Shown here piece by piece: positions 33,076 to 56,909 of a DNA stretch of 64,000 bases (position 1 is its first letter; each line of letters starts with the position of its first letter). Source of the stretch: Salipaludibacillus agaradhaerens (GTDB lineage: Bacteria > Bacillota > Bacilli > Bacillales > Salisediminibacteriaceae); NCBI RefSeq assembly GCF_002019735.1, contig NZ_KV917378.1, forward strand, positions 2,320,869 to 2,384,868, in the 5' to 3' direction. The translations under genes and the position numbers were made by a program. Below the pieces are notes generated by a model. It saw only the letters and a list, made by a program, of their open reading frames with translations. It had not been told where the DNA came from and made no database searches.

Positions 33076-33231
33076 ATAAAACGAACCTTCATCAGTGGGA
33101 GGTTTCGTCCTCCCCCCACTGATTAGTGGTTGAGTCAACCAGGACATTACCGACCGTTAGCTCCCGTCTAAGCAGATTTCTCTGCTCTCTATTTTGAGAC
33201 AGGCGTTTTACGGACGGTTATCTGTGATAAA
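33076..33231 (+). repeat. 157-bp family repeat, copy 7 (first of a tandem pair)
   Basis: Full-length copy: ATAAAACGAACCTTCATCAG, first stem GGGAGG...CCTCCCCCCACTGATTAG, second stem ending CGTTTTACGGACGG, then TTATCTGTGATAAAAC. It shares its last bases with the next copy. Confidence 0.9.
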
Positions 33232-33383
33232 ACGAAACTTCATCAGTGGGAGGTTTCGTCCTCCCCCCACTGATTAGTGGTTGAGTCAATCAGGACATTA
33301 CCGACCGTTAGCTCCACCTAAATAGAATGACTCTTCTTTCTATTTTGAAGCGGGAGATTTACGGACGGTTATCTGTGATAAAA
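33227..33383 (+). repeat. 157-bp family repeat, copy 8 (second of a tandem pair)
   Basis: Nearly identical to the copy before it in the first half, diverged in the second loop. Joined head to tail through a shared GATAAAAC. No other feature is seen in the 32.68-33.07 kb part of this gap. Confidence 0.9.
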
Positions 33384-33519
33384 CTGGCTAATAATGAAAA
33401 TGGGACGGACACTGTTTACTATAATGCTGCTTTTTGAAGAAAATATGAAGATTAACTTCTTCATTAAAAGAAGCAAGGGGCACACCTGTTAATTGATTAA
33501 AAGGAGTGTATAGACAAAT

Positions 33520-39266: not shown

Positions 39267-41301
<2,035 letters not shown>

Positions 41302-41682
41302 TAGCTATGTAGTATAGATCATTTATCATTGTTTGTGATGAAAATTCAGTTGTGAATGCCATTCAAGCAACTATAATTTTCGAAATATTCATTCAATTAT
41401 GTTGTGCCCTTTGATTGCCCCCCAGCCTTAGAACATCGTTTCACGTCATGTTAAGACCTCTTATGAAAAAATGCGTTTATTAGCTGCTAGTGAAAAATGC
41501 CTGTTTAAATAGGTCAGGATGCATGGGAGAGATTGAATAATTTATATCCGATTCAGTAACATTTAAAACAAGCAATAGTCATACGCTTTATCTTTTAGGA
41601 GACTGAAGAGCTTCATTTCTCGTTACGTGGTGCTGACGATCATAACAAAAAAGTCTTGAAAATGACTGAAAGCGTGAGGTAA

Positions 41683-42522
41683 ATGAAGTCTATGTCTAAT
41701 ACTTCTCATGAGAGAAACAACATATTAGGAGCCGGATATGCTGAACACACACAACCATATGATATGTATATAGAAAAGATGGATAGTTACTTGTTCAGGA
41801 TACAGAATGAAGGAATTGCTAAATACACCTCAATGGATGCAGATAACCTAGAAGTGCTTAAAGCAGGGGATTTTATCATTGTTCCCCCAGGTCGCCCATA
41901 TAGATTAATGATTAATCCCCAGGTGCAACTTGATCAGACAAAAAGAGTGTATAGCTTCGATTATTTTCTGTTTCTTAAGGGGGCATGGATAGACCAATGG
42001 GCACAAAAAATGGAGCGCCCATCCAAGCTAAAAGTACCTTTAAACCAAGGTATTATTACTTATTTCCGTCAGCTAACCCACGAACATTTAAGACGTGGAG
42101 ACGAAAGCAAAGAAATCTGTGATCACTTATCAAAAGCGCTCTGCCTGACAATCGATTGCATCATATCCAACCAACTGTCTTTTAATGGTCATTTCTTTAT
42201 CGCTTGTCAAATGAAACAATTTATTGAGAAAAATATCACTACCCCATTTAAAGTTGAGGATGTTGCCAAACACGTAAATTTAAGCGTTTCTCGTACGACT
42301 ACGTTATTTAAAATGGCATTTGGTAAAAGCATTATTCAATACACGTTAGACCTTCGTTTAGACATAGCTCGCGAACGCATTATGCTTGGACACTACCATC
42401 TCCAACATCTCGCAGAATCTTGTGGCTTTCAAAATTACAATTACTTTTATAAAGTATTCAAAAAGAAGTTTAACCTCTCTCCTAAAGAGTTTCGCACCAA
42501 ATATTATCATTCTTTGGATTAA
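41683..42522 (+). CDS. AraC family transcriptional regulator
   Basis: A 279-residue regulator with a cupin-like N-terminal sensor (KAGDFIIVPPGRPYRL) and two C-terminal HTHs (FKVEDVAKHVNLSVSRTTTL and LQHLAESCGFQNYNYFYKVF, ending KKFNLSPKEFR). It is a paralogue of the regulator at 38192; the two enclose the cyclomaltodextrinase gene. It could control the convergent iminosugar-like operon or the amylases. GTGAGG lies before the ATG. Confidence 0.87.
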   Translation: MKSMSNTSHERNNILGAGYAEHTQPYDMYIEKMDSYLFRIQNEGIAKYTSMDADNLEVLKAGDFIIVPPGRPYRLMINPQVQLDQTKRVYSFDYFLFLKGAWIDQWAQKMERPSKLKVPLNQGIITYFRQLTHEHLRRGDESKEICDHLSKALCLTIDCIISNQLSFNGHFFIACQMKQFIEKNITTPFKVEDVAKHVNLSVSRTTTLFKMAFGKSIIQYTLDLRLDIARERIMLGHYHLQHLAESCGFQNYNYFYKVFKKKFNLSPKEFRTKYYHSLD

Positions 42523-42831: not shown

Positions 42832-42990
42832 TTTAAAACAAATTTACAATCAGTGGACGTTTTCGTTCTTCCCCCACTGATTGGTAGTTGAGTGAATCAG
42901 GACACGAACGCCCGTTATTCCCCATCATAATAGATTCAACACATCTCTCTACTTTGAACAGGGCTTTTACGGACAGTTACCTGTGATAAG
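42832..42990 (+). repeat. 157-bp family repeat, copy 13
   Basis: Full-length but diverged at its start; keeps CAATCAGTGGACG, CCCCCACTGATTGGTAGTTG, GTGAATCAGGACACG and CGGACAGTTACCTGTGATAA. Confidence 0.8.
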
Positions 42991-43077: not shown

Positions 43078-44436
43078 TTACCCACTTATATCTTTTTGAG
43101 GCTCTACTAAGTTCCGAATCCACTTCTTCGAGTAGAGTCTCCCCAATCCTAGTCCCAGTCGAATGACTTCTTCTAATGTAAGTAGGAAATACACCCAGTA
43201 GACTGGCAATCCAAACACAAACGCAGATATGAATGCTACAGGTACCCCAAATCCCCAGGTCGTTGTCGTATCAATTACAAACAAATATTTTGTATCGCCT
43301 CCACTGGCTAAAACACCATGAGCCACAATCATATTTGACACTTTGACCCAAAATAATAGTGCAAAAACGATAATAACTGCGATGGAAAGATCGTGTGCTT
43401 CAGGGGAAATTTGATACAATGACACATATACGCTTGCACATAAAATAATCAAACCCGATAAGCTGATCGTTACGATGAGCCCCATTTTAAAAAATCGTTT
43501 GGCATATAAAAATGCCTCGTCATTCTGATTACCACCTAACAAATTTCCTACTAAAACGGTAGCGGCACTTGCAATACCAGATGCTAAACCAATACTTAAT
43601 AATTGAATCGGCTCTGATACAGCCATTGCTGTAATTTCACTAGTTCCCATACGCCCATAGACAACACCGTATGTTGCTTCACCTGTTGCCCAAAAGAATT
43701 CAGTTAACACAATGGGGTAAGTAGTGATAGCAAATTTTTTCATTAAGGTTTTATCAATTTGAAACACGTCAAAAAAGGAATAGGCACCTGGTAGGCGTCG
43801 AGCATATATAATAGCCAGCATCATAGCAAATTCAATTGTTCGTGCAATGAATGTTCCAACTGCAGCGCCTTGAATACCTAATTCAGGCAAACCAAAATTT
43901 CCAAAGATAAGCATATAGTTCAATAATACATTGAGCCCAACAGAAATACCGCTCATGACCATAGGCAATTGGGCATGTCGTGTACTACGTAAAACAGCTG
44001 AATAGATGACCGTTAACATCATTGGTATATAACTTAAACTGACAATTTGCAAGTAGATACTTCCTGCTTCGATAATGGCCATATCCTTCGTAAACAAACT
44101 CATAATATGCTCGTTGAAAAAGAATATCATGATGGCAAAAGGTAAACAAATCGCGCCACCTATGACTAAGCCCAATCCCAACACGTGCCTAACCCTTGAT
44201 CGATCTTTACTCCCCCAGTATTGTGCCACATAAATAGATACACCTGAGGCTATACCTGTTAAAACAAATAGCAAAATTCGAAAGAGTTTATTTGAAATAC
44301 CTACCGCAGAGATCGATGCATCACCTAGTTGACCAATCATGACTTGGTCTGTCATATTAAGCGAGGCCATAATAACACCTTGCAAAGAAACCGGTATAGC
44401 TATCGCTAATACCGTTTTCAAAAACTTCTTATCCAT
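43078..44436 (-). CDS. MATE family efflux transporter
   Basis: A 452-residue membrane protein with 12 predicted segments in two homologous halves. Recognised by LAIAIPVSLQGVIMASLNMTDQ, MIGQLGDASISAVGISNK and LSIGLASGIASAATVLVGNL. MATE proteins export cationic or neutral compounds by Na+ or H+ antiport. As the last gene of the aminotransferase-dehydrogenase-phosphatase-GH13 operon (104 bp after the GH13 gene) it is a natural exporter for the product. AAAGGGG precedes the ATG. Confidence 0.9.
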   Translation of the reverse strand: MDKKFLKTVLAIAIPVSLQGVIMASLNMTDQVMIGQLGDASISAVGISNKLFRILLFVLTGIASGVSIYVAQYWGSKDRSRVRHVLGLGLVIGGAICLPFAIMIFFFNEHIMSLFTKDMAIIEAGSIYLQIVSLSYIPMMLTVIYSAVLRSTRHAQLPMVMSGISVGLNVLLNYMLIFGNFGLPELGIQGAAVGTFIARTIEFAMMLAIIYARRLPGAYSFFDVFQIDKTLMKKFAITTYPIVLTEFFWATGEATYGVVYGRMGTSEITAMAVSEPIQLLSIGLASGIASAATVLVGNLLGGNQNDEAFLYAKRFFKMGLIVTISLSGLIILCASVYVSLYQISPEAHDLSIAVIIVFALLFWVKVSNMIVAHGVLASGGDTKYLFVIDTTTTWGFGVPVAFISAFVFGLPVYWVYFLLTLEEVIRLGLGLGRLYSKKWIRNLVEPQKDISG

Positions 44437-44540
44437 AATGTTGTACCCCTTTATTTCCTTGTTCTATATGTTAATGTACACTATAACGAAATCAGACCTT
44501 TTTTCAGTGTGAACCAGACTCTATGAATTATGAACAACAC

Positions 44541-46505
44541 TCATTCCACACTTTTCATTCCTGAAAAAATGACAGCTTGAAGTGGATTAATCCTAATAAG
44601 CTCGCTATGATTAACACTTCGCTTGGCAATTTGTTCTTCTGTATGAATCATCATGTCATAAGAAAAATATGAAAAAACAATGTGGTTTAGTGTTACATAA
44701 GATCTTTGATCCCCTATATTTAAACATAAGAGTAGTACGTGCTCTTCATTTTCATAGCCATAGATAACCAGTTCCTCAGGCGAGTCTGCCACAAAAAAAT
44801 TTTCGACGAGCAATAAGTCTCGATGCTTTTTTTTACATGTATCTAAACTTTTAAATAGGTGAATCATCGCAGGAGCACCTTGATTGTTCCAATCAATGAT
44901 CATTTTATTGAAAAAAGCCCTTGGGATACTTTCCCCACCAGTATTATCTGAGAGTCCACAATTCAACGGTTGTCGTTCATTTACTTCTTGCCCTGTCGTA
45001 ATAAACGGAACACCATTTGGTAGAAAATGATTAAATACTGCCATAGCCCGTGCCAATTTCACTCCACCAGGTCTACTAACTATTCTCGGTGTATCGGCTG
45101 TTTCGGAACAAGCAAATATAGGCAACTTTAATGATGGTAACTCTTTGATATAGCCAATAAGATCCGGCTTGTTCAGCCTAGTCATCATCTCCCAGCCACT
45201 ACCAAGCATCATGGTGTAACCATATTCAAACGTCCTCTTATGATTTTTGTTAAAAAGCTCTTCACTAATTAAAATTGCATCCGGCTTCTCTTCTCGTACA
45301 ATGTGAAACAAGTGTTGCAACAAGGACACTGGTAGAGCGTGTCCAATATCTATTCTAAATCCATCAACCCCGTACTCTAATAAATTAAATGTGATGACTT
45401 CTTCTAAAAGATTCCAAAGCAATTGGTTAGGCATTTTCCCTGGAAACACATTTGATTTAATCGTATCGAATAGTACATAAGGGGGTTGATATGAGTCCAA
45501 ATAAGGACGTACTTCTGGTGCCTCATCTAAATAAAACCTTAAAAAAGTAATGTCTGTCCATACAGGTTGCTCGTCGTTTATCCAATCTGAATGTGCTGGT
45601 GCTGTCGTAATCTCAAATTCTTTTTCTATTAACTCTAATAAATCTTCTCCCGTTTGTTTCGATTGTTTTTTCAATTTATCCCACAACTCTGGATTTATCA
45701 CATCTGGCGAAGAAGAAAATTTCCTTAAATGTTCCTTTGTCTCAGAAGCTGTATATACCCGTTCGAGATGGTCATGCGTACATTCTTCGAATACACCTAA
45801 CCCCGGTATTTTTGGCGGCTGAAATCCACTTTCATATTTTTTATAGATCCAATAGAACCAATCTGGATGATCATATATTAATGCGCTGTTTCTGGCCGCC
45901 GTTTTTGGGATAAAATCTTGAACAACTTTTATGCCCTGCATGTGACATGCTTCTACTAAAGCTTTGAATTCCTGATGAATCGTAAACCCTTTTAAATCAT
46001 CTAAGAGAGGGTCATGTAAGTTTGCATCCAAATGAAAATAATTTTTAATTGCATAAGGAGATCCTAAGTCACCTTTTGGATGCATGTCACTATATTCATT
46101 AATAGGAAGTAGATATAGGATGTTTACCCCCATTTTTTTCAATAGGGGTAATAAAATAATCATCCGTAAAAAAGTTCCCGATTCAATATGACCATCTCGA
46201 TTATAATCCCATGCCGCCGTGTACCTTACAAGCGATGAATAGATGGTTGCTTCTCGATATTCTAACGCGTGTTTATCGTTTGGATTGTTAGAATAATCCG
46301 ATATATATTGAAATAACTCAAAGAAATAATGAAAAGGATTCACTTTAATCTGCCCAGATTGCTCTACTTCAGTATCCCTATAGCCGATTTCATTCCATAT
46401 TTTCGGAATCCAAAAGTCAACCTTGTTTTTTTCAAGACGTTTCTCTTCTACAAACCGATATATTTGCTCAAAATTCTTTCGTTCACTCGATGTCAATTCA
46501 CTCAT
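44541..46505 (-). CDS. GH13 alpha-amylase-family protein of an uncommon type
   Basis: A 654-residue cytoplasmic protein. About 100 residues of helical N-terminus lead into an EF-hand-like loop DYNRDGHIES, then the barrel with LKKMGVNILYLLPINEYS and KGDLGSPYAIKN. Catalytic Asp lies in DGFRIDIGHALP, Glu in ILISEELFNK and Asp in ETADTPRI, so all three are kept. A long insertion (about 250-330) separates strands. The IDIGHALP and SEELF motifs are unlike amylases and nearer to transferase-type GH13. In this operon it may transfer sugar to the amino-sugar product. That is inference. Confidence 0.75.
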   Translation of the reverse strand: MSELTSSERKNFEQIYRFVEEKRLEKNKVDFWIPKIWNEIGYRDTEVEQSGQIKVNPFHYFFELFQYISDYSNNPNDKHALEYREATIYSSLVRYTAAWDYNRDGHIESGTFLRMIILLPLLKKMGVNILYLLPINEYSDMHPKGDLGSPYAIKNYFHLDANLHDPLLDDLKGFTIHQEFKALVEACHMQGIKVVQDFIPKTAARNSALIYDHPDWFYWIYKKYESGFQPPKIPGLGVFEECTHDHLERVYTASETKEHLRKFSSSPDVINPELWDKLKKQSKQTGEDLLELIEKEFEITTAPAHSDWINDEQPVWTDITFLRFYLDEAPEVRPYLDSYQPPYVLFDTIKSNVFPGKMPNQLLWNLLEEVITFNLLEYGVDGFRIDIGHALPVSLLQHLFHIVREEKPDAILISEELFNKNHKRTFEYGYTMMLGSGWEMMTRLNKPDLIGYIKELPSLKLPIFACSETADTPRIVSRPGGVKLARAMAVFNHFLPNGVPFITTGQEVNERQPLNCGLSDNTGGESIPRAFFNKMIIDWNNQGAPAMIHLFKSLDTCKKKHRDLLLVENFFVADSPEELVIYGYENEEHVLLLCLNIGDQRSYVTLNHIVFSYFSYDMMIHTEEQIAKRSVNHSELIRINPLQAVIFSGMKSVE

Positions 46506-46524
46506 GGCCCTTTCCCCACCTCTT

Positions 46525-47199
46525 TTATATGTTTACAAACTGAGACAGCATTCGATTAAAAAATGAAAAGTCTGTAAATCGATTGATTGTGATGACGGGA
46601 TCGTGCATGTCTTGAACGTTAGACATGGCATGTGGGTAAAATAAAACTGTTCCAACATGTGCAGAAAGAGCTGCTTGTACACCTATTGCACTATCTTCAA
46701 CTACTAATGCATGCTCAGGAGAAACAATTAACTTGTGCAAAGCTTTCGTGTACGGTTCTGGATCAGGCTTGGTGTTTACAACACTTTCCCTAGTAATTAA
46801 ACAAGAGATACTGTCTAGTACTCCTATGATTTTCAAGTTTGCTTCTGCCACTTTTCGATTTGCTGTTGTGACACATGCTATCTTTATACCAGAGATTTTC
46901 AGCGCCTTTATTAATTCAGAAGCATAAGGACGTTCCATTTTACGATCAATGATTTGCACATATCTGTCTTCTACCTGTTGCATCCACTCACTTTTATTAG
47001 TAGTAACACGTCGTAGTTGAAGTTGATCAAACGTCTCTTCTAAGCTTAAACCTATTAACTCTTTACTTTTATCAATTGATATGACGTGACCTATTTCACT
47101 GCATATATCATTGACTGCTTGATGATGATAATGTTCACTGTCAACTAATACACCGTCGATATCGAAAATAACAGCCTCAAAGTGATGTTTATGCCTCAT
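46525..47199 (-). CDS. HAD-superfamily sugar-phosphate phosphatase/phosphomutase-like
   Basis: A 224-residue HAD subfamily I protein with motif I FDIDGVLVDSEHYH (Asp nucleophile and acid/base), motif II Thr in VTTANRK, motif III Lys in TKPDPEPY and motif IV VVEDSAIGV. It resembles beta-phosphoglucomutase and sugar-phosphate phosphatases. It overlaps the dehydrogenase gene by 11 bp. In the proposed pathway it would remove phosphate from the aminated sugar phosphate; a phosphomutase in maltose metabolism is the alternative. GAAGGAGAGG precedes the ATG. Confidence 0.83.
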   Translation of the reverse strand: MRHKHHFEAVIFDIDGVLVDSEHYHHQAVNDICSEIGHVISIDKSKELIGLSLEETFDQLQLRRVTTNKSEWMQQVEDRYVQIIDRKMERPYASELIKALKISGIKIACVTTANRKVAEANLKIIGVLDSISCLITRESVVNTKPDPEPYTKALHKLIVSPEHALVVEDSAIGVQAALSAHVGTVLFYPHAMSNVQDMHDPVITINRFTDFSFFNRMLSQFVNI

Positions 47200-48250
47200 T
47201 TTCCTCTCCTTCAGGTTGAACGAGTATCTTTATCGCTGCGTCACATGCTCGAAATGCTTTATCTTCAAGGGACAGTCCTAAAAGTTTTACTGCTTGATGA
47301 AATTTTCTAACTGGTAACTTATGAGTGATTAATTTAGATCCAGGAATAGCGCCGTTTGCTAATAATGCTAAAGCTTCATTGAAAGAGTTGTTCAGACTAT
47401 CTATTGATCCGTAAAAGCTGATACTTTCATCTGCAATCCAACCAAGGTCAATCCCAACCACTTGTTGTTTTAGTGCAATAGATAATACTTGCCCACCCCT
47501 AGATAGATGATGTAAGTAGTCATGAACAGCGCAACCCGAAGTATCGATGACCACATCTATTTGAGTGCCTGTCCCATCAAACACATCTAACGTTCCTTTT
47601 AAGTTTGTCGCCAATCTCCATTTAGGATCTATCACATCTTTGACTAGATGTTGTCTATTAATCTGATTTTCTACCACGACACCTGAATATCCCTTTGCCG
47701 CTAAAGCCAAACTATATAACAAGCCCATCGGTCCCCCACCGATAACAACGATGTTCATAGCGGTATGAAGCGTTAAGCACTTTATACCTGTTAAGACACA
47801 ACTCAGCGGCTCCGTCAGGGTAGCTACTTCATAACTCAAATTGTCTGGTAGCTTATACAAGAAAGAATATTTTGTTTTGTGATAATTTGTAAAAGCACCA
47901 TCACTGCTTACCCCTGTTTCCAATTGCGTTTTCGATTCACAATGGTTTTTTCGATTAGTTCTACAAAAACGACAATGACCACAATAATATGTGGGATCAA
48001 CGACAACACGCTCTCCCACCTGAAGGTTTGGGACTGATTCACCTATTTGAATAACTTCCCCTACCGTTTCATGGCCCAGAATGGTGCCAGGTAAAGCTGC
48101 TTCATATTTACCTGTTATAATATTAAGGTCCGTTCCACAAATACCTGTCATTTTTACCTTTATCAACACTTCATCCGGCAATATGGTGAGATCAATTTTT
48201 TTATCCTGAACTTTGACGTCCCATGGGCCGTTATAAACAACTCCTAACAT
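47189..48250 (-). CDS. Zinc-dependent polyol-type dehydrogenase (GutB1-like)
   Basis: A 353-residue medium-chain dehydrogenase. Catalytic zinc: Cys in TGICGTDLNI, His/Glu in LGHETVGEV. Structural zinc Cys cluster: CGHCRFCRTNRKNHC. Rossmann loop: VVIGGGPMGLLYSLAL. This is the sorbitol/threonine dehydrogenase class. In Bacillus deoxynojirimycin producers a GutB1 enzyme oxidises the amino-polyol before ring closure; the neighbours make a similar role plausible here. It follows the aminotransferase by 13 bp. GGGAGG precedes the ATG. Confidence 0.85.
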   Translation of the reverse strand: MLGVVYNGPWDVKVQDKKIDLTILPDEVLIKVKMTGICGTDLNIITGKYEAALPGTILGHETVGEVIQIGESVPNLQVGERVVVDPTYYCGHCRFCRTNRKNHCESKTQLETGVSSDGAFTNYHKTKYSFLYKLPDNLSYEVATLTEPLSCVLTGIKCLTLHTAMNIVVIGGGPMGLLYSLALAAKGYSGVVVENQINRQHLVKDVIDPKWRLATNLKGTLDVFDGTGTQIDVVIDTSGCAVHDYLHHLSRGGQVLSIALKQQVVGIDLGWIADESISFYGSIDSLNNSFNEALALLANGAIPGSKLITHKLPVRKFHQAVKLLGLSLEDKAFRACDAAIKILVQPEGEENEA

Positions 48251-48263
48251 AACTAACGCCTCC

Positions 48264-49511
48264 CTATATCACTTCATCTAATGATTTTTTTAACATTTCG
48301 ATGATCTCATATATCTCAGCTTTACTAGTTATAAGCGGAGGGCGTACTTTGACAACATTCCCAAAGCCATAACGAGAGGAACGAAGGATTAACCCATTTT
48401 TAAGACTTGTTTCCACTATTTTTTGTGTCATTTTTGGATCTTCATGCCCCTCACGATCGGAAATTTCCAATCCCCACATGTATCCTAATCCCCTAACATC
48501 AGAGATAAACGGGTACTGATTCATCAATTCAGTTAATTCCTCTCCCAATAAATCTCCATTTCCCCTTACATGTTCAAGAATATTTTCTTTTTCCAGTACA
48601 TCTAAGTAAGTTTGTGCGGCTGATATGGCTAATAAATTTGCTCCTGAAGTAAATGAGTGTTCATAGCTTTCAAACACTTCTAAGCGTGATTCCATGAGAA
48701 CAGCAGCAACTGGTATACCAATTCCCCCTAGTCCTTTCGCTAAAGTGATGATATTAGGTTTCATGTCAAAGTGATTACTAGCAAACATATGACCTGTTCG
48801 ACCAAGTCCTGTCTGAACTTCATCAGATATTAGGATAATATCGTGTTCATCACATATTTTACGAATTAATTGAAAGTATTCTTTTGGAGGAACAATGTTT
48901 CCTCCGTTCCCCATAACAGGCTCAATAATCATACAAGCTACTTGATTTGATGAGGAATATTCAATAAAATCATTAATTCTTTCTGCACATAAAAGGCCAC
49001 AATCTGGGTAAGTTTTTCCGTAAAAACAACGGTGACAGTACGGTGCAGGTACTTTAAGCGACTCCTGATAATTTAGAGATGGAAAAGATTCTCTTCGAAA
49101 TGCGTTACCTGAAATTGATGTAGTTAATGCCGTCTGTCCATGATGTGACAACATCAAGCTTAATACACCCGTTTTCCCACTTGATTTCATCGCCATCTTG
49201 ATAGCTGCTTCGTTTGCACTTGAACCAGTCAGATCTCTCATAAAAATTTTATTAATATTTTCTGGAGCTTCATCGAGTAACTTGCTAAAACCATTTTCAA
49301 CAATAGGTTTTGTATAGGTTGAACTCGCATGACTTGCCTTTTTGATCTGGTCTGTTAAGGCATCTACCATTTCGGTGTGATTATAGCCCAACGGTAAGTT
49401 AAAAGTACCTGATGCTGCATCGATATAACTTTCTCCATCGATCTCAAATCTAATTCCATTGCCCGATAAGTGAGCTAATTTAATTTCGTTTTTAATGGCA
49501 AATGTCCTCAT
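48264..49511 (-). CDS. Class III PLP-dependent aminotransferase (GabT1-like)
   Basis: A 415-residue fold-type I aminotransferase. The PLP Lys is in ITLAKGLGG, the pocket Asp in LISDEVQTGLGRTG, and the N-terminal VDGESYIDAASG-like strand is FEIDGESYIDAASGTFNLPL. A Cys-rich piece, YCHRCFYGKTYPDCGLLC, is unusual but occurs in some class III enzymes. It heads the operon. GabT1 of Bacillus, which aminates a ketose phosphate in deoxynojirimycin synthesis, is of this class; many class III enzymes act on other ketones, so the substrate is inferred from context. Confidence 0.87.
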   Translation of the reverse strand: MRTFAIKNEIKLAHLSGNGIRFEIDGESYIDAASGTFNLPLGYNHTEMVDALTDQIKKASHASSTYTKPIVENGFSKLLDEAPENINKIFMRDLTGSSANEAAIKMAMKSSGKTGVLSLMLSHHGQTALTTSISGNAFRRESFPSLNYQESLKVPAPYCHRCFYGKTYPDCGLLCAERINDFIEYSSSNQVACMIIEPVMGNGGNIVPPKEYFQLIRKICDEHDIILISDEVQTGLGRTGHMFASNHFDMKPNIITLAKGLGGIGIPVAAVLMESRLEVFESYEHSFTSGANLLAISAAQTYLDVLEKENILEHVRGNGDLLGEELTELMNQYPFISDVRGLGYMWGLEISDREGHEDPKMTQKIVETSLKNGLILRSSRYGFGNVVKVRPPLITSKAEIYEIIEMLKKSLDEVI

Positions 49512-49570: not shown

Positions 49571-49588
49571 GAGCGCAAACGTTTGCTC
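49571..49588. promoter_or_regulatory. LacI/CcpA-type operator upstream of the aminotransferase operon
   Basis: The 12-bp perfect palindrome GCAAACGTTTGC (49575-49586) lies about 60 bp before the start codon. LacI-family sites, including MalR boxes and cre, have this CG-centred form. Confidence 0.6.
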
Positions 49589-50250: not shown

Positions 50251-50284
50251 TGAAACCGCTTGCATTATTTTGTAATCGCTTTCT
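50251..50284 (+). promoter_or_regulatory. Two tandem cre sites upstream of the amylase gene
   Basis: TGAAACCGCTTGCA (50251-50264) and TGTAATCGCTTTCT (50271-50284) each fit the CcpA consensus with one mismatch and are spaced 20 bp, two helical turns. TATAAT follows at 50289-50294. The rest of the 1-kb gap (49.6-50.5 kb) has AT-rich sequence and a second TATAAT at about 50457, but no gene. Confidence 0.55.
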
Positions 50285-50521: not shown

Positions 50522-52108
50522 ATGATGACTAAGAAAATAGGCCTGTTGCTTACTACTGGACTTACTGTCGCAATTTTGTCTACTGGCTGTCTACAAAAGA
50601 CAAATACACCTTTAATATTTGACGAAGAGGATTTAAAGACGATTGAACCACACGGTGTCTATTATGAAATATTTGTAAGATCCTTTTATGATTCAACAGG
50701 AGATGGCATTGGTGACTTCCAAGGAGCCACATTACAGCTTGATTATTTACAAGAGTTAGGTGTGGAAGGCATCTGGTTAATGCCAATTAACCCGTCACCT
50801 AGCTACCACGGATATGATGTGGTTAATTATATGGATGTAAATCCAGAGTATGGGACACTCGATGATTTTAAAAAATTTGTTGCAGAAGCAAACAAAAAAG
50901 GAATAAAAGTCATCAAAGATTTTGTGGTCAACCATTCCAGTGAGGAACATCCGTGGTTCCAAGCTGCATTAAAACATGATGAAAAGTACCGTGATTACTA
51001 TGTGTGGGCAGATGAAGATGCACATATTGGTCAAGAAGGTGAATGGGGTCAACAAGTCTGGCACGGTACAGGAAACAATGTATATGAAGGGATATTTTGG
51101 GAGGGAATGCCTGATTTGAATATGGATAACCCAAAAGTCCGAGAAGACATTTATGATATTGGTACTTTTTGGCTTGAAGAGGTTGGTGTTGATGGGTTCA
51201 GGTTAGACGCTGCCAAACATATATACAGTTCTTACCACGGAGATGATTATCAAGAGAAAAACCACCAGTTTTGGCGAGAATTTAGAACTGAAATGGAAAA
51301 AGTTAATCCCGATGTAATTCTTGTAGGCGAAATTTGGGATACAGCTGATGTTGTTGCACCCTATTTAGATGGTGGCTTACACTCCGCTTTTAATTTTGAT
51401 TTATCGGGACACATATTAACTTCTGTAAAATCGGAAAGTGATGCAGGACTAGTGACAGAACTTGAAAAAACGAGAAATTACTTCACTACAAAGTCTGAAG
51501 ATTTTATTGATTCAACTTTTATTACCAACCATGATATGAACCGAACGATGAGTGAATTAGCCAATAATATGGATCATGCTAGAATGGCCGCCTCGTTATT
51601 ATTAACATTACCAGGAAACCCTTATCTCTATTATGGGGAAGAAATCGGTATGGAAGGTGAGAAGCCTGATGAAGACATCCGTTTGCCGATGAGGTGGTAC
51701 AAAGATTCAGAAGATACAAAGCAAACGACATGGAGAGCTGATCGTTATCATAGTAATGACACTGATAATGCCATTGATGTAGAAAGCCAACTGCAAGATG
51801 AAAATTCCCTGCTCCATCACTATAAATCCTTAATTTATGCCCGTCGAGCTAGTGAAGCATTAATTATGGGTGAAATAAAAAGCACATCTATTACAGAAGA
51901 TGGGATAGTATCATTTGAACGAATAGCAGAAAATGAAGAAAAACTTGTTATACACAACTTAAGCAATGTAACGAAAGAAATCAACCTTAGTGATGACCTA
52001 ACTGAGTATAAAAACTATTTTTTCTATATCGGAGAATTAGATGATATTAGGTTGAAAGATAACGTAATAGAAATACCTGGCTATACAACTGTTATTTTAA
52101 AGAAGTAA
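50522..52108 (+). CDS. Alpha-amylase (GH13) lipoprotein
   Basis: A 528-residue extracellular lipoprotein: signal peptide with lipobox LSTGC, then a GH13 barrel. Catalytic residues: Asp in DGFRLDAAKHIY, Glu in ILVGEIWDTA, Asp in ITNHDMNRTM; the calcium-binding and early motifs YYEIFVRSFYDSTGDGIGD, VKDFVVNHSS-like (KVIKDFVVNHSS) also fit. It belongs near the maltogenic/oligo-1,4-glucan amylases and would feed maltodextrins to the cell. GAGGAGG lies before two adjacent ATGs. Two cre sites suggest glucose repression. Confidence 0.92.
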   Translation: MMTKKIGLLLTTGLTVAILSTGCLQKTNTPLIFDEEDLKTIEPHGVYYEIFVRSFYDSTGDGIGDFQGATLQLDYLQELGVEGIWLMPINPSPSYHGYDVVNYMDVNPEYGTLDDFKKFVAEANKKGIKVIKDFVVNHSSEEHPWFQAALKHDEKYRDYYVWADEDAHIGQEGEWGQQVWHGTGNNVYEGIFWEGMPDLNMDNPKVREDIYDIGTFWLEEVGVDGFRLDAAKHIYSSYHGDDYQEKNHQFWREFRTEMEKVNPDVILVGEIWDTADVVAPYLDGGLHSAFNFDLSGHILTSVKSESDAGLVTELEKTRNYFTTKSEDFIDSTFITNHDMNRTMSELANNMDHARMAASLLLTLPGNPYLYYGEEIGMEGEKPDEDIRLPMRWYKDSEDTKQTTWRADRYHSNDTDNAIDVESQLQDENSLLHHYKSLIYARRASEALIMGEIKSTSITEDGIVSFERIAENEEKLVIHNLSNVTKEINLSDDLTEYKNYFFYIGELDDIRLKDNVIEIPGYTTVILKK

Positions 52109-52844: not shown

Positions 52845-53561
52845 ATGGTCAAGGTGACCGTATGGAATGAAAATCGTCATGAACAAAAAAAACCGCTTGT
52901 TAGAGACATTTATCCAGAAGGCATTCATGGCGCAATCGTTCACTTTTTAAAGGAAGATTTTGAGGTGATAACAGCTACATTAGATGATGACGAACATGGC
53001 CTTACTGATGACGTATTAAATGAAACGGATGTATTGCTTTGGTGGGGACATATGGCTCATGAGGAAGTAGATGATGCAGTCGTTGCAAAAGTAAAACAAC
53101 GTGTCCTTAGTGGAATGGGTCTAATCGTTCTTCATTCAGGTCACTTTTCGAAAATTTTCAAATCACTAATGGGGACGACATGTGATCTTAAATGGCGGGA
53201 AGCTGGCGAAAAAGAAAGGTTATGGGTAATTGATCCAAGCCATCAGATTGCAGAAGGAATTGGCAACTATATTGAGCTTGAAAAAGAAGAAATGTATGGG
53301 GAACATTTTGATATTCCTCCTCCAGAAGAAGTCCTGTTTTTAAGCTGGTTTGAAGGAGGAGAAGTGTTTAGAAGTGGGTGCACTTACCGAAGAGGAAAAG
53401 GGAAAGTTTTTTATTTCCGACCTGGACATGAAACGTATCCAACTTATTACCACAAAGATATCCAACAGGTTATTAAAAACGCGGTTCAGTGGGCCATACC
53501 TACGAAACGAGTAAAGCCTGTTTATGGGAATGCAAAACCTTTAGAAGGTATTAAAAACTAA
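52845..53561 (+). CDS. ThuA-like glutamine-amidotransferase-fold protein
   Basis: A 238-residue ThuA family protein: [20 protein letters not shown] at the start, [28 protein letters not shown] and the end [20 protein letters not shown]. ThuA acts in the 3-keto route of trehalose and related disaccharides in rhizobia. Here it leads a four-gene cassette with two Gfo/Idh oxidoreductases and a TIM-barrel isomerase. No sugar transporter lies next to it. Confidence 0.88.
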
Positions 53562-53584
53562 TTAAAGAATGGGAGAGAAACCAA

Positions 53585-54610
53585 GTGCGACAACTAAAAA
53601 TCGGAGTAATAGGTTGTGGGAGTATTGCAAAGCATCGGCACTTGATTGAGTATGCGCAAAATGAACAAGTAGAGATTGTTGCGGTATGCGATATTGTAAA
53701 AGAGCGCGCAGCTGAAATTGCAACGTTATATAAAGCAAAAGCATACACAAACTATGAAGAGCTAATTGCCAATAAGGAGATTGATGCAGTCAGTGTTTGT
53801 ACCCCAAACTACTTGCACGCACCGATGACGATCGCGGCGTTAAAAGCTGGAAAGCATGTGCTATGTGAAAAACCAATGGCCACATCAAAGGCAGAAGCAG
53901 AAGACATGATTCAAGCTGCAAAAGCATCTGGTAAGAAACTCATGATCGCTCATAACCAGCGTTTCGTACCAGCGCATCAAAAAGCGAGACAATTCATTGA
54001 ACAAGGTGAACTAGGGAAGATTTATAGTTTCCGTTCTGCTTTTGGTCATGGTGGGCCTGAAGGATGGAGTGCAGACGGTACTGATAGCTGGTTTTTCAAA
54101 AAAGAAGAGGCATTTATTGGCGCCTTGGGTGACCTTGGTGTCCACAAAACCGATTTATTACGATTTCTTTTAGATGAAGAGTTTGTTGAAGTAGGCGCAT
54201 TTGTTGAAACAAGTTCTAAGAAAAAGGCTGATGTGGATGATACAGCTGTTTGTGTACTGAAGTCACAAAGTGGCATTATCGGGACGTTAGCAGCTAGCTG
54301 GTCATATGTGTCACAAGAAGATAATGCAACGGTTATTTATGGAGAAAAAGGCATCATGCGTTTATTAGATGATCCTGTTGATTCTCTCGTTATTCAGTAT
54401 CAAAACGGTGAAGTGGCCAAATATGAGCTTGGTCAAATTCAAACGAATGAAGCCGGGGGCCAAACATCCTCAGGTGTGATTGACCGCTTTATAAGCTCAA
54501 TCATGAATCAACAAGAATCACCGGTATCAGGGGTAGAAGGATTGCGTTCTCTTCAAGTTGTATTAGCGGCACTTGAATCACAAGAAACGAGCAAAATTAT
54601 TAAAATATAG
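53585..54610 (+). CDS. Gfo/Idh/MocA family oxidoreductase
   Basis: A 341-residue NAD(P)-dependent sugar oxidoreductase. It starts with GTG. Rossmann loop GVIGCGSIAKHRHL, the family motif LCEKPMATSKAEAEDM (EKP Lys) and SWFFKKEEAFIGALGDLGVH with the catalytic Asp/His pair. It may oxidise a hydroxyl to a 3-keto sugar or reduce it back. It is 23 bp after thuA and probably cotranscribed. Confidence 0.9.
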   Translation: MRQLKIGVIGCGSIAKHRHLIEYAQNEQVEIVAVCDIVKERAAEIATLYKAKAYTNYEELIANKEIDAVSVCTPNYLHAPMTIAALKAGKHVLCEKPMATSKAEAEDMIQAAKASGKKLMIAHNQRFVPAHQKARQFIEQGELGKIYSFRSAFGHGGPEGWSADGTDSWFFKKEEAFIGALGDLGVHKTDLLRFLLDEEFVEVGAFVETSSKKKADVDDTAVCVLKSQSGIIGTLAASWSYVSQEDNATVIYGEKGIMRLLDDPVDSLVIQYQNGEVAKYELGQIQTNEAGGQTSSGVIDRFISSIMNQQESPVSGVEGLRSLQVVLAALESQETSKIIKI

Positions 54611-54691
54611 CGTAAGTAGCTGCCATCATTAATGAAAGAAGGCAATATGACGAAAGCATGACTTATGAAAGAGTTATATCGAACGATTACG

Positions 54692-54848
54692 ATAAAACGA
54701 ACCTTCAATCATTGGGAGTTTTAATTCTTCCCCCCATGATTGATAGTAAGTGAATTAGGACATTTACGCCCGTTATCTCCCGCCTAAATGATTTAGCTCT
54801 GATATCTATTTTAAGCTAGGAGTTTTACGGACGATTATATGGGATAAA
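54692..54848 (+). repeat. 157-bp family repeat, copy 14
   Basis: Full-length copy inside the sugar operon, between the first oxidoreductase and the isomerase: ATAAAACGAACCTTCAATCA ... GGAGTTTTACGGACG ... GGGATAAA. It may attenuate or stabilise the operon transcript. Confidence 0.85.
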
Positions 54849-54865
54849 TGAGGAGGTTATGCGTT

Positions 54866-55834
54866 ATGAAATTAGGTGTGTTCACCGTTTTATTTTCACA
54901 GAATAATTTTGAAGACATGTTAGATATCGTTCAAAAATCAGGCGTCCAAGCGGTAGAAATCGGTACGGGATGTTATCCAGGAAATGCCCATTGCCATCTC
55001 GATAAGCTATTAGAGAGTGAAGAATTACGTAAAGATTATTTAGAAAAAGTTGATTCTCGCGGCATCCAAATTAGTGCCTTTAGCTGTCATGGTAATCCCA
55101 TTTCTCCAGATAAGTCATTTGCAAAAGAATCACATGAAACATTATTGAAAACGATTAAACTAGCTCATTTAATGAATGTTCCGGTTGTGAATTGTTTTTC
55201 TGGAACAGCAGGTGATTCTGATGAAGCTAAGTATCCAAACTGGCCTGTATCACCATGGCCAAATGAATATGCCGATGTGTTGACGTGGCAGTGGGAAGAA
55301 AAGCTCATTCCTTATTGGAAGGAAGTTGGACAGTTTGCCGAAGACCATAACGTAAAAATTGGTTTAGAACTTCATGGCGGCTTTTTAGTCCATACCCCAT
55401 ACACGCTTTTAAAATTAAGAGAGGCCACATGTGACGCCATCGGTGCTAACCTTGATCCGAGTCACATGTGGTGGCAAGGTATTGATCCAGTAGCAGCAAT
55501 TAAAATTCTAGGTAAGGAAAATGCGCTTCACCACTTTCACGCAAAGGATACGTACATTGATCAAGAGAATGTCAACATGTACGGATTGACAGATATGCAA
55601 CCTTATGGAGATGTTCAGACAAGAGCATGGACATTCCGTTCAGTAGGGTGTGGCCATAGCCTTCAAGAGTGGTCAGATATGATCAGTGCATTACGCACTT
55701 ATGGATATGACTATGTTGTCAGTATTGAACATGAAGATCCACTCATGTCCATTGAAGAAGGGTTCCAACGAGCCGTAACAAACCTCAAATCCGTCATCAT
55801 TGAAGAGAAGCCTACGGAAGCTTGGTGGGTGTAG
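54866..55834 (+). CDS. Sugar phosphate isomerase/epimerase (AP endonuclease 2 family TIM barrel)
   Basis: A 322-residue TIM-barrel protein: KLGVFTVLFSQNNFEDMLDI at the start, VQAVEIGTGCYPGN, KIGLELHGGFLVHTPYTLLK, IGANLDPSHMWWQGIDP and ALHHFHAKDTYID provide the metal ligands (Glu, Asp, His, Glu in VVSIEHEDPLM). It resembles IolE/IolI and the 3-keto-sugar isomerases. The ATG after GAGGAGG is chosen. It is followed by the second oxidoreductase. Confidence 0.88.
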   Translation: MKLGVFTVLFSQNNFEDMLDIVQKSGVQAVEIGTGCYPGNAHCHLDKLLESEELRKDYLEKVDSRGIQISAFSCHGNPISPDKSFAKESHETLLKTIKLAHLMNVPVVNCFSGTAGDSDEAKYPNWPVSPWPNEYADVLTWQWEEKLIPYWKEVGQFAEDHNVKIGLELHGGFLVHTPYTLLKLREATCDAIGANLDPSHMWWQGIDPVAAIKILGKENALHHFHAKDTYIDQENVNMYGLTDMQPYGDVQTRAWTFRSVGCGHSLQEWSDMISALRTYGYDYVVSIEHEDPLMSIEEGFQRAVTNLKSVIIEEKPTEAWWV

Positions 55835-55856
55835 AATTCGTAAGGAGAGTGGAGAC

Positions 55857-56909
55857 ATGGGAATGAAACTTGGCATTATCGGTTACGGGGGCATGGGTTA
55901 TTGGCACGGCGAATATGCCCCTCGCGCCGGAGTAGACGTCGTTGCCGCTTATGACGTTGATCCAAAACGTTTAGAGATGGCGAAAGAAAACGGCATTAAA
56001 GCTTATGTTATTTTAGATGATTTTTTAAAACATGATGGCATGGATTTTGTTGTCATCGCAACACCTAATGACGTTCATAAAGAATTAGCGATCAAAGCGA
56101 TGAATGCAGGAAAGCATGTCATGGTCGAAAAACCAGCCACTATGTCAGTAGCTGATTGGGATGAGATGGTAGCTGAAAGTGAGAAAACAGGTCGTATTTT
56201 AACTGTCCACCAAAACCGCCGCTGGGATAAAGATTACAATGTGATGCGCAAAGTTGTCGAAGAAGGAAAAATCGGTGATGTTTTATCTATCGAAAGTCGC
56301 GTATTTGGTACCGGTGGTGCATTCTTCGGCTGGCGCAGCTTCACAAAATACGGGGGCGGCATGATTTTCGATTGGGGCGTTCACCTCTTTGACCAATTAT
56401 TAGATATGTACCGTGATACGAAAGTAACGAACGTCTATTCCAAACTCATGACTGTCCTTGATCAAAAGGTAGACGACTACTTTAAAGTGATACTGACATT
56501 AGATAATGGGACGTTGTTACATGTAGAAGTTGGGACATACGCATTTCACAAACTACCACGTTGGTATGTGATTGGCAATGAAGGCACCTTACAAATTGAT
56601 GATTTTGATTGTGAAAAAGGGGGTTATACGAAACCGAGCTATACTGATACACCAGTGGCTGAAGTCGTTGTCATGACATCGGCAGGCCCAACACGTATGA
56701 TGGCCCCTCGTCCACCTGAAACAAAAGAAGACTTTCCATTACCAGAGCTAGAAACAGATTGGACTGAATTATATCAAAATTTAGTAGGTGTGATGGCAGG
56801 TAAAGAGGATCTAATTGTTAAGCCTTATCAGGTTAGGAGAGTACTAACTTTGATGGAAGCCATTTTTCAATCAGCTGAGGAAAACCGCTCATTAGAAGTC
56901 AGTATTTAA
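55857..56909 (+). CDS. Gfo/Idh/MocA family oxidoreductase
   Basis: A 350-residue dehydrogenase with Rossmann loop GIIGYGGMGYWHGE, motif VEKPATMSVADWDE and MIFDWGVHLFDQLLDMY in place of the catalytic DLGVH. It differs from the paralogue at 53585, so the two may act at opposite ends of one pathway (oxidise, then reduce). AAGGAG precedes the ATG, which lies 22 bp after the isomerase stop. Confidence 0.9.
   Translation: MGMKLGIIGYGGMGYWHGEYAPRAGVDVVAAYDVDPKRLEMAKENGIKAYVILDDFLKHDGMDFVVIATPNDVHKELAIKAMNAGKHVMVEKPATMSVADWDEMVAESEKTGRILTVHQNRRWDKDYNVMRKVVEEGKIGDVLSIESRVFGTGGAFFGWRSFTKYGGGMIFDWGVHLFDQLLDMYRDTKVTNVYSKLMTVLDQKVDDYFKVILTLDNGTLLHVEVGTYAFHKLPRWYVIGNEGTLQIDDFDCEKGGYTKPSYTDTPVAEVVVMTSAGPTRMMAPRPPETKEDFPLPELETDWTELYQNLVGVMAGKEDLIVKPYQVRRVLTLMEAIFQSAEENRSLEVSI

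Follow-up and report, generated by a model that had tools for sequence, protein, structure and literature searches.

A putative azasugar operon of Salipaludibacillus agaradhaerens containing a maltosyltransferase-like GH13 gene and a MATE exporter gene

Background

What is produced by a five-gene operon at positions 43078-49511 of a 64,000-nucleotide stretch of the Salipaludibacillus agaradhaerens genome (assembly GCF_002019735.1, contig NZ_KV917378.1, positions 2,320,869 to 2,384,868; hereafter the window), in which genes resembling those of azasugar biosynthesis stand beside a GH13 gene and an exporter gene? Azasugars are sugar mimics that block starch-digesting enzymes. Their biosynthesis in bacteria has been defined by a three-gene cluster (3GC) whose aminotransferase (AT) carries the diagnostic motif SGNXFRXXXFPNXXXXXXXLXVPXPYCXRC (PMC8382821, Beal & Horenstein 2021). 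The three genes by which such clusters are recognised give the bare sugar mimic, whose later fate and natural role were left open (PMC8382821).

An earlier note on this DNA had read the locus as an iminosugar or amino-sugar operon, and had considered it a variant on account of its HAD-type phosphatase. The analysis reported here supports an azasugar operon through the AT motif, the trees of the AT and of the dehydrogenase (DH), and the gene order, while the phosphatase did not prove to be a variant; the glycosylation and the alpha-glucosidase inhibition that the note proposed stay at the level of inference. With moderate confidence, we take the product to be an azasugar that is exported, probably with a maltosyl group or a short maltodextrin attached.

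Results and discussion

The probable azasugar core

All five open reading frames and their families were confirmed exactly as the earlier note had described them, on the minus strand and in the transcription order AT, Zn-dependent DH, HAD phosphatase, GH13 protein and MATE-family exporter (Table 1). The 13 nt gap between the AT and DH genes and the overlap of the DH and HAD genes, which measures 11 nt, were likewise recovered from the coordinates; 19 nt separate the HAD and GH13 genes and 104 nt the GH13 and MATE genes, and purine-rich, Shine-Dalgarno-like sequences precede all five starts.

The AT carries the sequence SGNAFRRESFPSLNYQESLKVPAPYCHRC, in which the published azasugar consensus is matched at 15 of its 16 fixed positions, the exception being an N replaced by S, and which has one residue fewer between FP and L, a spacing identical to that of the Paenibacillus polymyxa enzyme. 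Owing to this one-residue spacing the exact regular expression matched no sequence, and the published motif was read from an alignment. The protein is 54% identical to the enzyme of the P. polymyxa plasmid cluster and 49-50% identical to Bacillus GabT1-type proteins, above the membership threshold of about 40%. It lies inside the azasugar AT clade of the tree (SH-aLRT 97, and 98 with the HAD-type subset), with the ordinary transaminases of the genus placed elsewhere.

The DH shares 43% identity with its counterpart in the P. polymyxa three-gene cluster, annotated there as gutB1. In the DH tree it belongs to a 20-row clade of azasugar dehydrogenases (support 100/99), outside which fall the sorbitol, ketose and threonine dehydrogenases, and, within it, to a nested 11-row clade of dehydrogenases from AT-DH clusters (100/98) that gathers the window genus, the Paenibacillus-type, Erwinia and a Streptomyces cluster devoid of phosphatase. 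A 3GC is further recognised by a Zn-dependent DH of the aminopolyol dehydrogenase group adjacent to the AT, and by a phosphatase (PF00459 or HAD PF13419/PF12710) in a published order, and both features are present here.

Generic Pfam families such as these are also present in catabolic enzymes, and the locus could be read as a common catabolic or polyol-utilisation operon to which the exporter has no relation. However, neither tree grouped the AT or the DH with ordinary catabolic enzymes, an outcome that the earlier note had named as refuting its proposal, as it had a lack of conserved gene order, which was not observed either: both enzymes are separated from the sampled ordinary transaminases and polyol or threonine dehydrogenases, and the operon holds neither importer nor sugar kinase but a gene of an exporter family. 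A catabolic polyol or amino acid operon was rejected on these trees, and we consider it very improbable.

The HAD phosphatase is a canonical HAD-IA protein, whose residues D13, D15, K144 and E168-D169 keep the catalytic positions of the superfamily. Its presence is not a novelty, because the AT-DH-HAD order, one of the two published azasugar orders, is already known from Paenibacillus and Chitinophaga (PMC8382821) and was found here in 12 Paenibacillus-type regions, namely the P. polymyxa plasmid and 11 others that are evidently from Paenibacillaceae.

The genome search suggested in the earlier note retrieved all five genes, in unchanged order, from two further species of the genus, with 91-99% protein identity, and these species also keep the flanking AraC gene and both flanking GH13 genes. 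Seven other genomes of the genus were compared, and five of them have neither the operon GH13 gene nor an azasugar AT; an evenly drawn sample of 397 genomes from the order contained no further genome with a GH13 match at E 1e-20. The G+C content of the operon resembles that of the whole window; a phage or plasmid origin was discarded on this ground and on the absence of relatives of the GH13 gene from plasmids and from viral contigs (pattern-based scan).

The GH13 protein and its linkage to MATE exporters

The GH13 protein aligns over residues 14-606 with the maltosyltransferase of Thermotoga (1GJU; phmmer E 2.4e-126, 40% identity), its carboxylates D386, E415 and D471 corresponding to the nucleophile, the acid/base and the third carboxylate, and is a full-length relative of the Thermotoga-type maltosyltransferase with the catalytic triad kept. 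One scan of 84,980 species brought up 80 loci with relatives of this protein. The six nearest, 46-49% identical, come from Paenibacillus tepidiphilus, P. jilunlii and Lachnospiraceae/Eubacteriales genomes; a Zn-dependent DH gene lies directly upstream of the GH13 gene in all six, and a MATE gene downstream in each of the five whose contig continues. At the other 74 loci, several of them short contigs, neither a MATE gene nor a GH13-adjacent DH gene was seen. Nine MATE-linked or sister-operon GH13 proteins (see below) form one clade with a support of 100, distinguished from the other relatives by six fixed differences, two of which stand beside the catalytic nucleophile (FRxDIGH vs ARxDMGH). 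The MATE linkage holds for every locus of this clade long enough to be judged and for none of the other relatives scanned, and the window MATE protein is 50% identical to the Paenibacillus sister-operon MATE and 36-37% to those of Lachnospiraceae. Among the 3GC regions examined, only that of the window carries the GH13 gene, which is, on this comparison, an unusual and new part of the operon.

The operon could also yield just an azasugar with nothing attached, such as deoxynojirimycin, mannojirimycin or a relative with five carbons, its GH13 protein handling maltodextrin only, for instance as an inhibitor-tolerant maltosyltransferase sustaining glycogen or maltodextrin metabolism. The three-gene cluster does mark known producers without any GH13 gene (PMC8382821), and the window protein keeps the fold and catalytic residues of a maltodextrin-acting enzyme and is encoded among starch-use genes. 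Against this stand the location of the GH13 gene inside the operon, between phosphatase and exporter, in all three genomes, its absence from every other three-gene cluster examined and the separation of its clade from the general maltosyltransferases. A role as general maltosyltransferase is less likely because the protein sits in the MATE-linked clade, and we regard a plain azasugar as possible but rather doubtful.

Several observations weigh against an operon making a maltosylated azasugar. The DH is just 31-37% identical to Bacillus GutB1 types, a distance also displayed by the known DHs of P. polymyxa and Chitinophaga pinensis, which fall below 40% (32%) in the same comparison (PMC8382821), and the HAD phosphatase only 24-31% identical to those of other azasugar clusters. 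A good number of the remaining GH13 loci lie on short contigs, so that the absence of a MATE gene could be judged for only part of them, and the AlphaFold model of the GH13 protein is poor (mean pLDDT 67.8). This protein could also act on maltodextrin alone. An azasugar acceptor has a precedent in a GH13 limit dextrinase that accepts 4-O-glucosyl-moranoline (PMC10223164).

Proposed pathway

The published pathway of the homologues gives the expected succession of amination, dephosphorylation, C6 oxidation and spontaneous ring closure. By homology, the AT would aminate C2 of fructose 6-phosphate and the HAD phosphatase would remove the phosphate, leading to 2-amino-2-deoxy-mannitol. The Zn-dependent DH would then oxidise C6, and attack of the amine on the aldehyde so formed would close a ring of the nojirimycin type. 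Least certain is the fourth step, deduced from gene position, clade and enzyme type, in which the GH13 protein, acting in the cytoplasm, would take a maltosyl unit off maltodextrin and place it on a hydroxyl group, either of the azasugar itself or of the open-chain compound that precedes it. The resulting pseudo-oligosaccharide would look like a piece of starch and ought to be accommodated by amylase subsites, and the MATE protein, judging from its family, would export it.

Alternatively, the product could be an uncyclised amino sugar or aminopolyol, such as a glycosylated amino-alditol serving as antibiotic, osmolyte or signal. Ring closure is spontaneous chemistry following the DH oxidation and is unreadable from sequence, and the GH13-MATE module occurs without the AT in the sister operon described below. 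The DH, however, groups (100/99) with dehydrogenases of azasugar clusters, whose reported C6 oxidation leads to ring closure (PMC8382821), and we consider a non-cyclised product improbable.

A sister operon and other candidate clusters

The sister operon successively encodes a DH, a GH13 protein, a MalE-like solute-binding protein without evident signal peptide, a reductase of the RibD C-terminal type and a MATE exporter. It was found in P. tepidiphilus, P. jilunlii, three more genomes that are probably Paenibacillaceae and three Lachnospiraceae/Eubacterium genomes, part of these loci belonging to metagenome-assembled genomes and depending on draft assemblies. An azasugar AT was searched in five of these genomes and in a Eubacteriales genome with a truncated locus, the three genomes found later lying outside this search; none was found in these six, where the best class III matches are 29-32% identical. 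In the DH tree the sister-operon enzymes group with Bacillus GutB1-type enzymes (100/99), and a topology keeping the AT-associated DHs together without them was rejected with an AU p of 0.0025, a value to be taken as indicative since the tested group was chosen after seeing the first tree.

These features suggest an azasugar or an amino-alditol as the product of the sister operon, too. It has a GutB1-like DH but no azasugar AT, so that there may be a second way into azasugars. RibD-type reductases use a sugar imine in open-chain form as substrate, and speculatively the sister enzyme could make an amino-alditol from an amino sugar. We tentatively propose a Bacillota family of maltodextrin-linked azasugars with a shared back end, consisting of the GutB1-like DH, the MATE-linked GH13 transglycosylase and the MATE exporter, and two front ends, one of them a reductase route. 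The first, in the window, would be the known AT with the HAD phosphatase; the second, in Paenibacillaceae and Lachnospiraceae, would comprise the RibD-type reductase and the MalE-like protein lacking a signal peptide, with neither AT nor HAD. Its reductase could turn an amino sugar, for example glucosamine, possibly already glycosylated, into an amino-alditol, which would bypass amination and dephosphorylation.

At E 1e-45 or better, a class-wide search with the sister DH brought up nothing but sister operons, HAD-type azasugar clusters, Bacillus GutB1 and one further type, a Paenibacillus-type cluster with another class III aminotransferase, of which three were examined. These three (L209, L210 and L211) combine this different aminotransferase with a DH 50% identical to Bacillus GutB1, an MFS transporter, a DUF1349 protein and a HAD protein, and possibly represent another azasugar cluster type overlooked by the AT motif. 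DUF1349 (concanavalin-like) proteins recur next to azasugar clusters in Paenibacillus, Streptomyces and Erwinia. On a plasmid of Streptomyces sp. NBC_00715 (L014, 5304-13438), a starch-synthase-like gene, an epimerase, an azasugar-type AT, a DH, a GT2, a DUF1349 protein and a MATE exporter, encoded one after the other, form another glycosylated-azasugar candidate, without phosphatase. Two loci (L122 and L123) are not three-gene clusters, their azasugar-like AT (about 47% identity) standing beside FAD-type, kinase-like, different HAD and tRNA-synthetase-like proteins.

Transcriptional and genomic context

Upstream of the AT gene lies a candidate operator of the LacI family, with one mismatch to the Streptococcus pneumoniae MalR consensus CGCAAACGTTTKSG (PMC4451989). 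Its 12-mer GCAAACGTTTGC occurs once in the whole genome, and a counterpart, GCAATCGTTTGC, is at the same place in both related species. Similar sites with 1-3 mismatches stand 120-170 nt upstream of five sister operons and are missing upstream of the three others. It is equally possible that the site is read by CcpA (cre) or by MalR; with the adjacent GH13 starch-use genes, it would suggest that production follows the use of starch or maltodextrin. Pattern scans for sigma-70 promoters and terminators gave matches no more frequent than in shuffled sequences.

The divergent alpha-amylase, with its N-terminal lipoprotein-type signal, is a possible extracellular partner of the operon. In both related species it likewise adjoins the operon, with 94-98% conservation, and the two other genomes of the genus with a match reach just 55-56% identity. 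Two cre-like sites with one mismatch each occur upstream of its gene (window 50251-50284), one kept in both related species and the other in one of them. On the other side, related repeats of 54-89 nt were noticed at window positions 33076-33384, 39329-39382, 41218-41304 and 42834-42989; three of these sites fall between genes just downstream of the operon and possibly correspond to a mobile intergenic element. A ThuA-like protein, two Gfo/Idh/MocA oxidoreductases and a xylose-isomerase-like protein encoded at 52845-56909 probably form a sugar catabolic operon, which is probably unrelated to the adjoining azasugar operon.

Table 1 Features of the operon and its surroundings in the window, and loci of the related clusters
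Feature	Position	Strand	Remarks
Class III PLP aminotransferase (AT), azasugar (GabT1-like) type	48264..49511	-	415 aa, Pfam PF00202
Zn-dependent aminopolyol dehydrogenase (DH), GutB1-like	47189..48250	-	353 aa, PF08240/PF16912
HAD-IA phosphatase	46525..47199	-	224 aa, PF13419, E 6.6e-31
GH13 transglycosylase, relative of Thermotoga maltosyltransferase (1GJU)	44541..46505	-	654 aa, PF00128
MATE-family exporter	43078..44436	-	452 aa, PF01554; TIGR00797 218.7 bits, over cut-off
CGCAAACGTTTGCT, MalR/cre-like candidate operator of the LacI family	49574..49587	.	14 nt, 63 nt upstream of AT start
GH13 alpha-amylase, divergent, N-terminal lipoprotein-type signal (LSTGC)	50522..52108	+	PF00128
AraC-family regulator, convergent with the operon	41683..42522	+	PF12833; adjoins the operon in both related species
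GH13 of neopullulanase/maltogenic-amylase type, starch-use neighbour	39373..41202	+	PF02903 + PF00128 + PF16657; syntenic in both related species
Sister operon loci	L016:8928-15233, L017:8824-15098, L018:2256-8301, L019:8120-14165, L020:8930-14974, L206-L208		
DUF1349 loci	L013:13495-14106, L014:11488-12045, L015:12165-12743, L144, L150-L152, L209-L211		

Relation to known systems

The operon shares with the three-gene clusters of P. polymyxa and C. pinensis the same three enzyme families, their order and the AT motif with its spacing. What the window adds is a maltosyltransferase-like GH13 gene and a MATE gene; those Paenibacillus clusters that were examined lack GH13 and possess an MFS exporter and in some cases a DUF1349 protein. 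With the Bacillus deoxynojirimycin cluster (gabT1-yktC1-gutB1) it has homologous AT (46-50% identity) and DH (31-37%) in common, so that the same chemistry is expected; the Bacillus cluster differs by an IMPase-type phosphatase, the order AT-phosphatase-DH, an MFS transporter and the lack of GH13. Towards the Thermotoga maritima enzyme 1GJU, near full-length homology and the conservation of catalytic residues and surrounding motifs contrast with the tie of the window GH13 clade to MATE and azasugar-type DH genes, and the acceptor may differ.

The acarbose cluster (acb) of Actinoplanes offers an analogy only, with an inhibitor joined to maltose and nearby amylase genes under MalR-type control (AcrC, AcbE; PMC5526262). 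Acarbose relies on a cyclitol formed by a sugar-phosphate cyclase and on the GT5-type transferases AcbI/AcbS (PMC9200736). Unlike this system, the window displays no such cyclase or GT5 and would join maltodextrin by GH13 transglycosylation. No sugar-phosphate cyclase of the DHQ-synthase family, which marks acarbose and validamycin clusters, was found in the operon or its analysed neighbours, and no GT5 or trehalose-synthase-like (pseudo)glycosyltransferase among the proteins of the same genes, the whole genome lying outside this last search. Since the genome has a single DHQ-synthase-family gene, far from the window, there is no extra cyclase for a route of this type, and an aminocyclitol was rejected as product.

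Conclusions

The azasugar core of this operon is of a known kind. Neither the coupling of GH13 and MATE genes to it nor the sister operon was found in the open literature, a scope that leaves aside subscription papers, preprints and the supplementary table of PMC8382821, and the sister operon is apparently undescribed. Since one operon combines an azasugar pathway with a maltodextrin transferase, an exporter and a maltose-type operator, the idea that it serves in the competition for starch can be put to a direct test. The combination is also a pointer to glycosylated azasugars; these could suit amylase subsites better than a bare monosaccharide mimic. The sister operon, found in Bacillota of gut and soil, suggests that searches relying on the three-gene signature may overlook chemistry of the azasugar type.

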